A DNA stretch of 32,952 bases from a bacterium (GTDB lineage: Bacteria > Patescibacteriota > Microgenomatia > Levybacterales > UBA12049), in NCBI GenBank assembly GCA_021824155.1, contig JAKALN010000007.1, positions 1-32,952 of the forward strand. The letters are read 5' to 3'. The notes under the pieces were generated by a model. The model was not told where the DNA came from. It worked only from the letters and a program-made list of their open reading frames with translations, and searched no databases. The position numbers were made by a program, and so were the translations under genes. Below, piece after piece: positions 4,376 to 9,357 of the stretch. The first letter of the stretch is position 1. Every line of letters begins with the position of its first letter.

Positions 4376-5285
4376 TGTTGCCGGAAACTAAATCTAAAAG
4401 TCTTTCTGTATCTAAAAATCTGTCATTGCTTAACATAACAACTAAGATAATAGTATGTCTGTTTTCTATCTTTGATGTAACTAATACCTCCCCCGCTTCC
4501 TCTGTGTAGCCTGTTTTTACTCCGTCAACGCCATCAGCCCCTAAAAGCTTATTAAGGTTATCCAAACTATAAACATTTACACCCGAAACATCGGTGATTG
4601 TTTTACTTTTTGTTGAAACTATTTTTGCAAATTCAGGGTTTTTTAAAGCAATTGATGCAAGTCGGGCCAGATCAACAGGGGTTGTATAATCCCCGTCATC
4701 CAAAAGCCCGGCCGGGTCCTGATAATGCGTGTTGAAAAGATTATATCTTTTTGTATTTTCATTCATTTTTTTAACAAATTCTTTTTCCCCTCCCGGATAA
4801 TTTTGGGCTATGGCTAAAGCAGCATCATTTGCCGAAGGCAATAGCATTGCATACAGTAAATTTTCAAAAGTCATCCTTTCTCCTTGCTGTAATCCCAATA
4901 TAGAACCGTCATTCGTTGCGGTCTTAACTGTTAAGATATCTCCAGGTTTAAAAACATCAAGAGCAGTAAGCGCAGTCATAATTTTAGTTGTTGATGCCGG
5001 AGAAAATCTAAGCTGTGGATTTTTGGAATATAAAACCGTTTTTGAATCGGCGTCCATCACAACCGCTCCTTCTGCAGATACTGCAGGTATAAATTCCGTT
5101 TTAAGTATAGGAAACTTAAGACTTGTTGAAATCGCTAAAGATGAAGGCAAAATTCGGTCCTTGTTTATTTTTACTTTTAAATAAACATCAAACAGCAATA
5201 GGACTAAAAGTGCAATTATAAGAATCGAAAATAATAAAGGTAAGTAGTATTTTTTAAAACTACTTAGTTTTGGAAAGTCTTTCAT
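4350..5285 (-). CDS. D-alanyl-D-alanine carboxypeptidase (peptidase S11)
   Basis: SPASTTKIMTAL (SxxK), SAN, and DGVKTGYTEEAG (KTG) motifs; start moved to internal ATG to reduce overlap with aspS. Confidence 0.9.
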   Translation of the reverse strand: MKDFPKLSSFKKYYLPLLFSILIIALLVLLLFDVYLKVKINKDRILPSSLAISTSLKFPILKTEFIPAVSAEGAVVMDADSKTVLYSKNPQLRFSPASTTKIMTALTALDVFKPGDILTVKTATNDGSILGLQQGERMTFENLLYAMLLPSANDAALAIAQNYPGGEKEFVKKMNENTKRYNLFNTHYQDPAGLLDDGDYTTPVDLARLASIALKNPEFAKIVSTKSKTITDVSGVNVYSLDNLNKLLGADGVDGVKTGYTEEAGEVLVTSKIENRHTIILVVMLSNDRFLDTERLLDLVSGNITYLSIHR

Positions 5286-6615
5286 CAACCCTCTCCATAT
5301 CCCGCGGGAACATACTCGCCTCACGAATATTAGAAAGCTCAAGAATTTGCATTGTCATTCTCTCTGATCCGAAAGCAAAACCTCCTTCTGGGGGAACTCC
5401 ATAGGAAAAGGCTTCCAAAAACATACTTACTTTTTTGGGGTCCATTTTCCATTCCTTAACATGCTCCATCAGCTGGCCATAATCATTAATTCTTCTTCCC
5501 CCGGATAGCCACTCTATTCCCCGGCATAATAAATCCATACCTTCGTTATACTCGGGTTTCTCGGGATTAGGATAGACATAAAAAGGCTTATTTTTAGTGG
5601 GATAACCGTACACAAAAACAAAATCTGAGCCTGTTTCCTCTTTAATAATTGCGCATATCTCTTTTTCATCTTCGGGGTTTAAATCTTTTTCTTTCCTTAC
5701 GTCTCTTCCCGAATGCTTAAATATTTTCTCCTGGGCTTCCCGTAAACTTAGAGTCGGAGTTTTATCAATCATTTTCGGAAGTGTGGCATTATAAAATTTA
5801 AGTTCTTTCTCACATTCTTTTCCCACTCTTTGAAGTATAAAACGGACAGCTTCCTCCGCCACATCTTTAACGTCCGTCCACGAATCAATAAAAGCCATTT
5901 CTGCGTCCAAAGAGACAACTTCTGCCAAATGCCTTGTTGTAACGCTTGGCTCTGCCCTGAATATTTTATTTACCGAAAAAACACGCTCAAATGCAGACAT
6001 TACAATTTGCTTGTATAGCTGAGGACTTTGCGAAAGGTAAGCTTTATGTCCGAAATAATCCACCTGGAAAACGTCTGCCCCTCCTTCGGCAACTGCGGGA
6101 ACAATAGAGGGAGCCTGAAATTCAAAAAAACCTTCTTTTTTAAGGTACTCACGGAAGCTGTCAATTATTACAGCCTGGACTTTAAAAATAGCCTGAATTT
6201 TAGGATGCCTAAGCGTAAGGGCCCTGTGATCCAATAAAGTTGGAAGTTCGAGGGTTAGCTCGTTTCCCCCCATATCAAAAGGTAAAGTTTTGGCCCTTGC
6301 AAGGATTTCTATTCCGGTGGCTTCAAGCTCGACAGTACCGCTGACAATATCCTTATTTATTGCGTTTTCGGGTCTTTTATTTACTCTACCGACTATTGTA
6401 ACTGCATATTCGGGTTTTAATTCCAAAGCCTCTTTATAAGCCTTTTCCGAAAATTTGGAATTTACCACAACTTGAATAATCCCACTCCTATCCCTTATAT
6501 CGAGAAAAATAAGTTTACCGTGGTCTCTTCTTATTCTTACCCAACCTGCAATTTTAATTTCCTCTCCGATAAAATTTGAAGCTTCGGAGGATAATACCCT
6601 TTTCAAACCGGCCAT
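5260..6615 (-). CDS. aspS: Aspartyl-tRNA synthetase, archaeal/eukaryal-type architecture
   Basis: 451 aa; OB-fold N-terminus, SPQLYKQ, FRAEPSVTTRH, GxERxxM motifs; no room for the bacterial GAD insert domain. Confidence 0.9.
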   Translation of the reverse strand: MAGLKRVLSSEASNFIGEEIKIAGWVRIRRDHGKLIFLDIRDRSGIIQVVVNSKFSEKAYKEALELKPEYAVTIVGRVNKRPENAINKDIVSGTVELEATGIEILARAKTLPFDMGGNELTLELPTLLDHRALTLRHPKIQAIFKVQAVIIDSFREYLKKEGFFEFQAPSIVPAVAEGGADVFQVDYFGHKAYLSQSPQLYKQIVMSAFERVFSVNKIFRAEPSVTTRHLAEVVSLDAEMAFIDSWTDVKDVAEEAVRFILQRVGKECEKELKFYNATLPKMIDKTPTLSLREAQEKIFKHSGRDVRKEKDLNPEDEKEICAIIKEETGSDFVFVYGYPTKNKPFYVYPNPEKPEYNEGMDLLCRGIEWLSGGRRINDYGQLMEHVKEWKMDPKKVSMFLEAFSYGVPPEGGFAFGSERMTMQILELSNIREASMFPRDMERVDERLSKTK

Positions 6616-6624
6616 AACCCATAC

Positions 6625-6653
6625 ATCATACCTAAAAATCCAAAACTTGACAA
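6625..6653 (-). promoter_or_regulatory. Promoter for aspS
   Basis: TTGTCA(6653-6648)-17 bp-TATGAT(6630-6625) on the minus strand; predicted TSS about 3 nt from ATG at 6615. Confidence 0.65.
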
Positions 6654-6675
6654 GAAGTCAGAATGGTGATAATAT
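6647..6675 (+). promoter_or_regulatory. Sigma70-type promoter upstream of the 6774 gene
   Basis: TTGACA(6647-6652)-17 bp-TAATAT(6670-6675). Confidence 0.75.
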
Positions 6676-6733
6676 TTAATTATCTTATAGTAATGGCTTA
6701 TAGTTTCTTTACTTTAATAAATAAATATTAATT

Positions 6734-6773
6734 ATCCTTTAACCAGATAAAAATCTGACTAAAGGATTTTTTT
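6734..6773 (+). terminator. Intrinsic-terminator-like hairpin in the leader, directly abutting the start codon at 6774
   Basis: ATCCTTTA-ac-CAGAT-AAAA-ATCTG-ac-TAAAGGAT followed by T-run and ATG; 3' arm contains the SD-like AAAGGA. Confidence 0.65.
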
Positions 6774-7691
6774 ATGGCAATTATTTCGGAAACTTTTATC
6801 AATACGCCGGAAAGTGCTGCTAAATTTAGACAAACTCAGCCAATAGCAGTCGGACCGGCTAATCAACCGGATACTTCTATGATTTTTTTGGGTGACAATC
6901 CCTCTGCATCGCGTGTTGAAATTAGTAAAAGAGTAAGGTATCTGGAAGCTGTACAAAGATTCCAAGTTCTTCAAGATGTTAATAGAAGAATGCAGATAGG
7001 ACTTGGAAAAACTCCGGAAGACGTTGAAAAACAATTGGCAAGCCGACAAAGTGCTTTTGATAAATTATCCCTTCCTGATCAAAAAGGGTTTTTACAAGAA
7101 GCAAGGGCACAAACGACAGAAGCTGTGAATTCCCTTTTTACGGAAGGACTTTGCCTTTATGATGGTCTGTTAATTGAAGTAAACGGCCGGTCGAATGAAG
7201 AAATTGCGGCTATATTTGATGCAAGAAAAAAAGCTTTTGATTCCGCGACATTACCCAGAAAACTGGATTTAGCCTTAAAAATGAAATCCGAAGCAGAAGA
7301 TATGCTGCTTAAAAGGTTTGATTTTTACGTGAACGCGTGGAGGGATACTCTTGTTAAAATGGGACGGCCCCGGGAAGCAATTGACCAAGAGATAGATACT
7401 TTGGAAGATAGATTTCTAAGCGCATCTCCCAAGGGGCAAATAGGCATAACAAAAGGTCTCAGGGAAAGAATTTCGGATGTTTCCTTCAGCAGATTTTCTG
7501 CATTTTTAGAACTATATTCTCTTCAGATAAAACAAAAAGGGCTTACCGGTGACGATTTTCCTTCTGCCGAATCTCTTAACCAAAGGTATCAGGGGTTATC
7601 AATTGCTAAAAGAGATGCATTGGTGGATGAAGTACACAAACTGACTATAAGGGCATTAACGGCTACGCCTGTAAATTTCCCGGCCGCTTAA
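6774..7691 (+). CDS. Uncharacterised helical-repeat protein (four ~59-60-aa repeats)
   Basis: 305 aa ORF with promoter and SD-like sequence; recurring G-x-x-x-E-E/D...F/Y...LP pattern at regular spacing; no family recognised. Confidence 0.8.
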   Translation: MAIISETFINTPESAAKFRQTQPIAVGPANQPDTSMIFLGDNPSASRVEISKRVRYLEAVQRFQVLQDVNRRMQIGLGKTPEDVEKQLASRQSAFDKLSLPDQKGFLQEARAQTTEAVNSLFTEGLCLYDGLLIEVNGRSNEEIAAIFDARKKAFDSATLPRKLDLALKMKSEAEDMLLKRFDFYVNAWRDTLVKMGRPREAIDQEIDTLEDRFLSASPKGQIGITKGLRERISDVSFSRFSAFLELYSLQIKQKGLTGDDFPSAESLNQRYQGLSIAKRDALVDEVHKLTIRALTATPVNFPAA

Positions 7692-9345
7692 TATCTTTTA
7701 TTTTAAGCTGAAGTTTTTTACTTCCATTCCATTGATTTTCATCAAGGGTATAAACAACATCAACTCTATCCCCTATCCTAAAACCGTTTTCCTCACCCAT
7801 TCCAAACGCGATCCCCTCAATTTTAATATTTGATTTTTGACTTTTGAGCTGTAATTTAAGATGCTTATTTCCGTTTCCAACAAGTCTTATATCTTCAATT
7901 ATAAAATCTTCCGTTAGAAAAACCGGTTCCGGATTTTTCATTCCGAAAGGCTGAAGTTCTTGAATAGAGTCGTATAAATCTTGGGAGATTAACCCTTCGG
8001 GAAGCTCCATATCTACTCTAATTAATCTCTCCAGTAAAACACCTTTAAGCATTTTTTTTGCCCTTTTTTGTAAGCTTTTTTCAAGCAAGGAAAGTTTTTT
8101 TGTTTCAACAGTAAACCCTGCCGCCATAGGATGCCCGCCCACGTCAACCAATAAATTTAAGTCCCCCCTTATAAATTCGACAATATTAAACCCTGTTATG
8201 GAACGGGCCGAAGCTTTACTGTAAACTTCACCTTCAGAAACGACAATCGAAGGACGGTAAAATCCTTCCACAAGCTTACCTGCAACAAGACCGATAACTC
8301 CTTGCTCGTAGGATTTATGTGAAATAAATAATATCCCGTCTGTTTTTAAACCTCTGGCAATTCCTTTTGCGTGAACTACGGCTTCTTCGGTTACTTGCTG
8401 TCTTTCTTTATTTGTGCTTGCCAATTTTGCTGCAAGCTCTATAGCCCTCTCTTTATTTGTAGTACAAATCAAGCGCAATGAATCCATTGCACTTTCAAGC
8501 CTTCCCATTGCATTTAATCTTGGTGCAATAATATGGCCTATTTCATAAACGCCTATATTTACCGAGTCAATTTTAGCTTCTCCAAATAAAGCCAAAAGGC
8601 CCGGTCTTTTTGTTTTCCGGAGTTTTAATAATCCGCTTTTTAATAATGCTCTATTTGCTCCCGTAAGAGGTACCAAATCTGCAACTGTGGCCAGGGCCAC
8701 CAATGCAAGATGTTCATCTTGCAGAATTCTGAATTCTGAATTATGAATTATGAATTCTTTTGAGAGCATATAGGCAACACCTGCTCCGCAAAGTTGAGTT
8801 GTATGGATAATCGAAAATGCTTTTGGTAATTTTTTTGAAGGGACATGGTGGTCGGTAATAATTACGTCTATTCCCTGTTTTTTTGCAAAATCTACAGCAT
8901 CATTTGCAACAATCCCATTATCAACTGTAATTATTAACTTAATATTCTGAATTTTAGATTCTAAATTCTGAATTCCTTTAAGAGAAAGGCCGTATCCTTC
9001 ATCTACTCTATGGGGAATATAAGGCAGTGCTTTTGCACCAAGACTGTTAAGGGTTTCCCAAAGGATTGCGCTGCCGCAAATTCCGTCAACGTCATAATCA
9101 CCAAATACTATTATTTGCTCTTTATTTTTTATTGCTTTTTTTATTCTGTTTACGGATTTTCTAACTTGAAGTTTATTTATTTTTACCTTATCTAAGGTAA
9201 CATTTAAAATTTGAGGATTTAAAAATTCTTTTATTTCCTTTTTTGTTTTAATATTCCTATTTTTAAGAAGTATTTTAACTATGCCGTCTATATTAATTTT
9301 TGAACTATCAACTTCCGGTTTGCTAATTAACTCCCATTTTTTCAT
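7663..9345 (-). CDS. recJ: Single-stranded-DNA-specific exonuclease RecJ
   Basis: DHH motifs: FGDYDVDGICG, ITDHHVP, GGHPMAAGF; start set at ATG 9345 (track uses TTG 9351). Confidence 0.95.
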   Translation of the reverse strand: MKKWELISKPEVDSSKINIDGIVKILLKNRNIKTKKEIKEFLNPQILNVTLDKVKINKLQVRKSVNRIKKAIKNKEQIIVFGDYDVDGICGSAILWETLNSLGAKALPYIPHRVDEGYGLSLKGIQNLESKIQNIKLIITVDNGIVANDAVDFAKKQGIDVIITDHHVPSKKLPKAFSIIHTTQLCGAGVAYMLSKEFIIHNSEFRILQDEHLALVALATVADLVPLTGANRALLKSGLLKLRKTKRPGLLALFGEAKIDSVNIGVYEIGHIIAPRLNAMGRLESAMDSLRLICTTNKERAIELAAKLASTNKERQQVTEEAVVHAKGIARGLKTDGILFISHKSYEQGVIGLVAGKLVEGFYRPSIVVSEGEVYSKASARSITGFNIVEFIRGDLNLLVDVGGHPMAAGFTVETKKLSLLEKSLQKRAKKMLKGVLLERLIRVDMELPEGLISQDLYDSIQELQPFGMKNPEPVFLTEDFIIEDIRLVGNGNKHLKLQLKSQKSNIKIEGIAFGMGEENGFRIGDRVDVVYTLDENQWNGSKKLQLKIKDIKRPGNLQA

Positions 9346-9357
9346 ACCCAAAACTTT

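Follow-up and report, generated by a model that had tools for sequence, protein, structure and literature searches.

In a member of Ca. Levybacteria (CPR/Patescibacteria), the interval between aspS and recJ encodes a protein of 305 residues that is built from tandem helical repeats and is preceded by an intrinsic-terminator-like hairpin directly abutting the start codon. Neither helical repeats nor attenuators are new in kind; the unusual point is an orphan repeat protein with such a hairpin at its start codon, in a slot whose content turns over among relatives. No description of this arrangement of repeat protein, leader and slot was found in open-access full text. We propose, tentatively and with somewhat less than even confidence, that the gene encodes a conditionally made cytosolic binding protein of helical hairpins under ribosome-coupled attenuation. 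CPR genomes are small and contain many orphan genes without a functional handle. A fixed site at which the protein changes but the orientation, and often a leader, lasts allows regulation and neighbourhood to be compared where protein sequence cannot be.

The gene and its locus

The DNA analysed (the window, 32,952 nucleotides) is a contig of an 814-kb genome that is 99.5% complete. The repeat gene is divergent from an ORF that we take, from sequence knowledge, to be aspS, and it overlaps tail to tail, by 29 nt, the 3' end of an ORF that is presumably recJ, named on the same basis. The positions of these genes, of the leader elements and of the repeat units are collected in Table 1. In the preliminary description the repeat protein had been assigned to positions 6951–7665; this span falls inside the ORF and covers the repeats, but it is not the entire gene. 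Residues 1–42 of the protein are predicted to be disordered, with low AlphaFold confidence, and inspection revealed no secretion signal.

Table 1. Features of the repeat gene, its leader and its flanks in the window
Feature	Position	Strand	Basis and details
aspS, slot-defining flank	5260..6615	-	ORF list; gene name presumed from sequence knowledge
Sigma-70-like promoter, beside aspS start codon	6647..6676	+	Sequence; -35 TTGACA 6647-6652, -10-like GATAATAT at about 6668-6675
uORF MAYSFFTLINKY, 12 codons + stop, near-leaderless	6693..6731	+	Sequence
Intrinsic-terminator-like hairpin	6735..6773	+	TCCTTTA(AC)CAGAT-AAAA-ATCTG(AC)TAAAGGA + TTTTTTT; directly abuts ATG
Helical repeat protein gene	6774..7691	+	ORF list; ATG start, 305 aa; in-frame homologues in G001 and G018
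N-terminal long helix, residues 43-76	6900..7001	+	Long helix of preceding half unit; AlphaFold H43-76
Repeat unit 1, residues 76-135	6999..7178	+	Held-out profile 18.4 bits; H81-96, H100-136
Repeat unit 2, residues 136-194	7179..7355	+	Held-out profile 12.8 bits; H141-156, H160-195
Repeat unit 3, residues 195-253, best conserved	7356..7532	+	Held-out profile 10.9 bits; H200-216, H219-254
Degenerate unit 4 and C-terminal tail, residues 254-305	7533..7688	+	Shorter helices H265-274, H277-296
recJ, flank, anchor for reading the slot in relatives	7663..9351	-	ORF list; gene name presumed from sequence knowledge

Internal repeats

The tandem repeats of the 305-residue protein were confirmed. The three best lags of an ungapped self-match were 119, 60 and 59 residues, with a best score that was reached by none of 300 shuffles, and when the self-match was run again, the window protein's highest score exceeded all 200 shuffles. 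The homologue in genome G010 gave a lag-112 self-match of 69 against a shuffle maximum of 45. We also performed a held-out test, which is non-circular, by leaving out one unit at a time, building a profile from the remaining three in three orthologues and scoring it on the omitted unit. The results showed that units 1, 2 and 3 of the window protein were each recovered with a score (Table 1) that none of 500 shuffles attained, whereas for unit 4 the profile gave no detection in the window protein and a weak one in the orthologues (G018). The self-similarity that had been anticipated is therefore significant, and of the four repeats of about 59–60 residues that had been described, three are clear and the fourth is degenerate. 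The positions given for the glycines (78, 138, 197 and 256) and the aromatic residues (F95, F155, F214 and Y272) are correct; F95, F155 and F214 are invariant among the three closest homologues, but G138 and G197 are not.

Since the lag-119 match starts at residue 60, the first long helix (residues 43–76) corresponds to half a unit. The architecture is thus an N-terminal long helix (half unit), three units of 59–60 residues and a degenerate C-terminal fourth unit. The C-terminal tail FP[AS]A is kept in the three orthologues.

Predicted structure and family searches

The AlphaFold2 model (three sequences), which is a predicted model and not a solved structure, had a mean pLDDT of 81 and a pTM of 0.61. 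Helices of 16 and about 36 residues alternate in it with the repeat period and form a regular array, which bears out the repeated helical units expected from the sequence. The model of the G010 homologue had a mean pLDDT of 51 and is usable only at approximately residues 112–242; the 16/36 rhythm recurs in its confident part.

Pfam gave no match for the repeat protein up to an E-value of 10, and hence no TPR, HEAT or other named repeat family. There was no significant match in NCBIfam, PHROGs or PADLOC or in a profile search of PDB sequences, and Foldseek against PDB and BFVD returned nothing at E ≤ 0.001 (the best PDB chain had an E-value of 0.17). The earlier statement that no family is recognised thus holds across all of these searches. 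As in the natural alpha-hairpin and alpha-solenoid repeats (TPR- and HEAT-type) and the designed protein DHR5 (5cwc), the model consists of tandem stacked helical units; unlike these, the window protein has a unit of 59–60 residues with one short (16) and one long (36) helix, and it is without a Pfam repeat match. The proposal of a new repeat-scaffold family is upheld as to the helical tandem repeats and the lack of a known family, whereas the term scaffold comes from the fold class only.

Homologues and probable single-unit relatives

Homologues of the protein, which had been described as an orphan, are present in four other genomes (five in total counting the window genome), all in the aspS–recJ slot, where there are probably distant single-unit relatives as well. 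The full-length homologues are those of G001 (same genus, 56% identity) and G018 (another genus, about 30–40%), and no others were found among 82 genomes of the order. A full-length profile matched 3 of the 374 genomes of the class, the same three, a distribution far narrower than the CPR as a whole. Distant homologues in G010 (474 aa) and G009 (343 aa) were linked to the family through the pairs G018–G010 (E 4e-12) and G010–G009 (E 6e-15). Outside the family, a single-sequence scan of genome contigs gave none and a profile scan only the two already known; viral contigs contained no homologue of the repeat protein.

By eye, many of the short ORFs in the slot appear to carry a single unit, of the form Y...L...GV......e...L...GT..eQ..a...L. 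Several of these ORFs (L016, L023, L027, L048, L070 and L072) were recovered above all 300 shuffles by leave-one-out profiles. A profile of the short ORFs, with units picked by eye, gave 8.2 bits on unit 3 of the window protein and 12.3 bits on the G001 protein (none of 300 shuffles in either case), and no match to the G010 or G009 proteins. When the repeat was aligned with the by-eye short units by hhalign, the E-value was 2.6e-5 and the probability 75%, in the same register. When the unit profile was iterated automatically over every ORF of the slots, with reversed and shuffled sequences as decoys, G010 and G009 were the only additions, and the short ORFs were not separated from the decoys. 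Because the units were chosen by eye and the automatic iteration did not reach them, we grade this link as moderate; on such moderate evidence, the window protein may be an amplified form of a single-unit ancestor.

The leader RNA

A TTGACAAG-type promoter is found at the equivalent place in most aspS–recJ slots. The 5' part of the window leader is conserved with that of G001, where a shorter uORF, MTYSLRLITK, occupies the equivalent place. The Shine-Dalgarno sequence AAAGGA (6761–6766) sits in the 3' arm of the hairpin. Folding gave a z-score of -2.5 for the window leader and -3.7 for the G001 leader, whose inner stem is altered on both sides relative to the window. The gap between the uORF stop and the hairpin is 3 nt in both the window (G000) and G001 despite the unequal lengths of the uORFs, and five other slots show an overlap of 1–2 nt between the uORF stop and the base of the terminator arm; two of nine leaders (L048 and L064) do not fit this spacing. 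The slot leaders share ancestry, so these cases are not independent events. As regards the post-initiation RNA control that had been suggested, a promoter, a uORF and a terminator-like hairpin do abut the gene, and the anatomy of the leader supports such control.

The window leader contains no alternative antiterminator and no upstream copy of the 3' arm (direct-repeat test, p 0.94). In another class of slots the terminator is of the type AATCTCC..GGAGATTTTTT and a second copy of its 3' arm lies upstream, which allows a 2:3 antiterminator to form in competition with the 3:4 terminator. An upstream copy of the 3' arm, or an alternative pairing, is present in several slots, e.g. L016, L026, L045, L046 and L068. 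No dominant residue that might represent regulatory codons emerged over 30 slot uORF peptides; there was a mild excess of His, and the window uORF has no His. The idea that the slot leaders sense one specific amino acid is unsupported beyond this mild excess.

A plain MAFFT alignment of the slot leaders yielded a consensus structure of only a 6-pair helix, because the terminator classes misalign, and the leaders were therefore folded one by one. In the window's own genome, a search for the hairpin-plus-ATG pattern gave 15 loose matches versus 23 for the reversed-pattern control, and of the five matches inspected besides the window's own, none showed a convincing hairpin immediately ahead of a long ORF.

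Two further features of the leaders were observed. A direct repeat, CTTATAGT-AATGG-CTTATAGT, surrounds the uORF start in the window (6684–6704) and is kept in G001; it may serve as an operator or contribute to the fold of the leader. The terminator-less slots L013, L021, L025, L070 and L072 have, downstream of the TTGACAAG of the promoter, a GTCAAGC-type motif that is its inverted partner, and perhaps have a different control.

Proposed regulation and function

Ribosome-mediated transcription attenuators with a leader peptide are known from the trp, his and ilv/leu operons. (See also PMC2965389.) In these attenuators, as in the window and G001, the gene is preceded by a short uORF and, after it, a hairpin resembling an intrinsic terminator. 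They differ from the window leader in that the latter has neither a run of regulatory codons nor an alternative antiterminator, its hairpin abuts the ATG and includes the Shine-Dalgarno sequence, and the gene that it precedes is not biosynthetic.

According to the attenuation model that we tentatively favour, transcription would begin at the promoter beside aspS and a ribosome would translate the short near-leaderless uORF. A ribosome that dwells at the uORF stop would mask the hairpin's 5' arm; RNA polymerase would then continue into the gene, and the Shine-Dalgarno sequence in the 3' arm would be exposed. If the stop were unoccupied, the hairpin would be free to fold and transcription would end ahead of the start codon. 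We infer the termination activity of the hairpin, its coupling to a ribosome and the direction of this coupling; given the leader anatomy and the shared spacing, we think it most likely that a ribosome at the uORF stop prevents hairpin formation. The product would be a soluble rod in the cytosol, made of stacked helical hairpins with a period of 59–60 residues; to judge from the fold class alone, its surface would most likely bind a partner or act as an adaptor for one.

The aspS–recJ slot in relatives

The aspS–recJ interval was read across the family with recJ as the anchor, and aspS lies beside recJ in 53 genomes or loci. The slot holds the repeat protein in five of these, RelA/SpoT-synthetase-like proteins in nine and other, mostly short ORFs in 34, and it is empty in the remaining five; the longest ATG-started ORF is oriented toward recJ in 47 of the 48 occupied slots. 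The slot is a rapidly changing orphan-gene site of Levybacteria in which the flanks and the orientation stay. Together with the apparent RNA control of the repeat gene, this turnover suggests a fast-changing, condition-dependent function.

The RelA/SpoT-like slot proteins (L024, L040, L041, L043, L044, L055, L059, L060 and L062; about 430–580 aa) are diverged. Singly they fall below the Pfam cut-off, and a profile of the set matched the alarmone synthetase YwaC at an E-value of 3e-4, so proteins resembling the small alarmone synthetases with a RelA-SpoT synthetase domain fill the slot in nine related genomes. Homology between these proteins and the repeat protein was considered and rejected, as none is detectable. 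The presence of these proteins, the attenuator-type leaders in the slot and the adjoining tRNA synthetase gene are what one would expect if the slot were a site for stress-response genes and the repeat protein acted likewise as a translation-stress effector, e.g. bound to the ribosome or to a tRNA synthetase. We regard this explanation as possible but rather doubtful: with no detectable homology between the two kinds of protein, a common position need not mean a common function, and in most of the RelA-like slots the leader is short and has no terminator (one is seen only at L043 and L059).

The content of the slot varies even within single genera. In one genus, G016 has a RelA-like protein, G017 an ORF of 176 aa and G018 the repeat protein; in another case the content differs across G009, G010 and G011 of one genus, and the flanks and the orientation are constant throughout. 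Variation of this kind would suit a turnover hotspot under diversifying selection, with cargo for conflict or host interaction (defence, counter-defence or the host cell) that an attenuator keeps off until needed. This is unlikely to be the role of the repeat protein, which has no PADLOC or PHROG match, no viral homologue and, by inspection, no secretion signal, and there is no recombinase in the slots read.

That the repeat gene is instead dispensable, a lineage-specific helical ORF that was amplified recently and has little function, with an ordinary terminator-like hairpin ahead of it by chance, would agree with its narrow distribution (3/374 genomes of the class) and the five related genomes with an empty slot, but is very improbable, given that the frame, the repeats and the C-terminal tail are retained at 56% and about 30–40% identity and that the hairpin is kept in G001 with inner-stem changes on both sides, before the start codon rather than after a gene.

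A broader history of the slot may also be considered, although we hold it to be more doubtful than the attenuation model itself. The slot could be a leader-controlled site in which one ancestral helical unit diversified, was amplified into rods and was exchanged with alarmone-synthetase-like genes, the RNA switch often being kept; regulation would then be conserved and the protein exchangeable.

Attenuator-like leaders elsewhere in the clade

A pattern search for the AATCTCC..GGAGATTTTTT-type terminator in 73 genomes gave 24 sites, versus one for the reversed pattern. Several sites outside the slot lie just before ilvE, leuA (two genomes) and ilvA, as identified by NCBIfam. The uORFs at those sites, translated by hand, are MKTNQNILLTIDLLLTEI and MNKRILLLNLVLLLKE (leuA), MSLIQELVALQVALLIVVEK (ilvE) and MKKFSSIQIISIISIMES (ilvA). 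Such leaders before leuA, ilvA and ilvE make ribosome-mediated attenuation, as we propose it for the repeat gene, plausible in the clade. Should the leaders terminate transcription conditionally, CPR bacteria would join the groups with ribosome-coupled attenuation, which the open-access papers searched do not describe for them.

At L077, L083, L086, L087 and L100, uORFs rich in Leu, Ile and Val are followed by a terminator-like hairpin that abuts the start codon of ilvE, leuA or ilvA. By their sequence, these branched-chain amino-acid leaders apparently represent the classical attenuation layout in CPR bacteria. Similar leaders, with uORFs rich in Leu and Ile, were observed outside the slot before other short orphan ORFs (L079, L080, L091, L092 and L093), a hint that orphan genes under leader control form a larger regulon.
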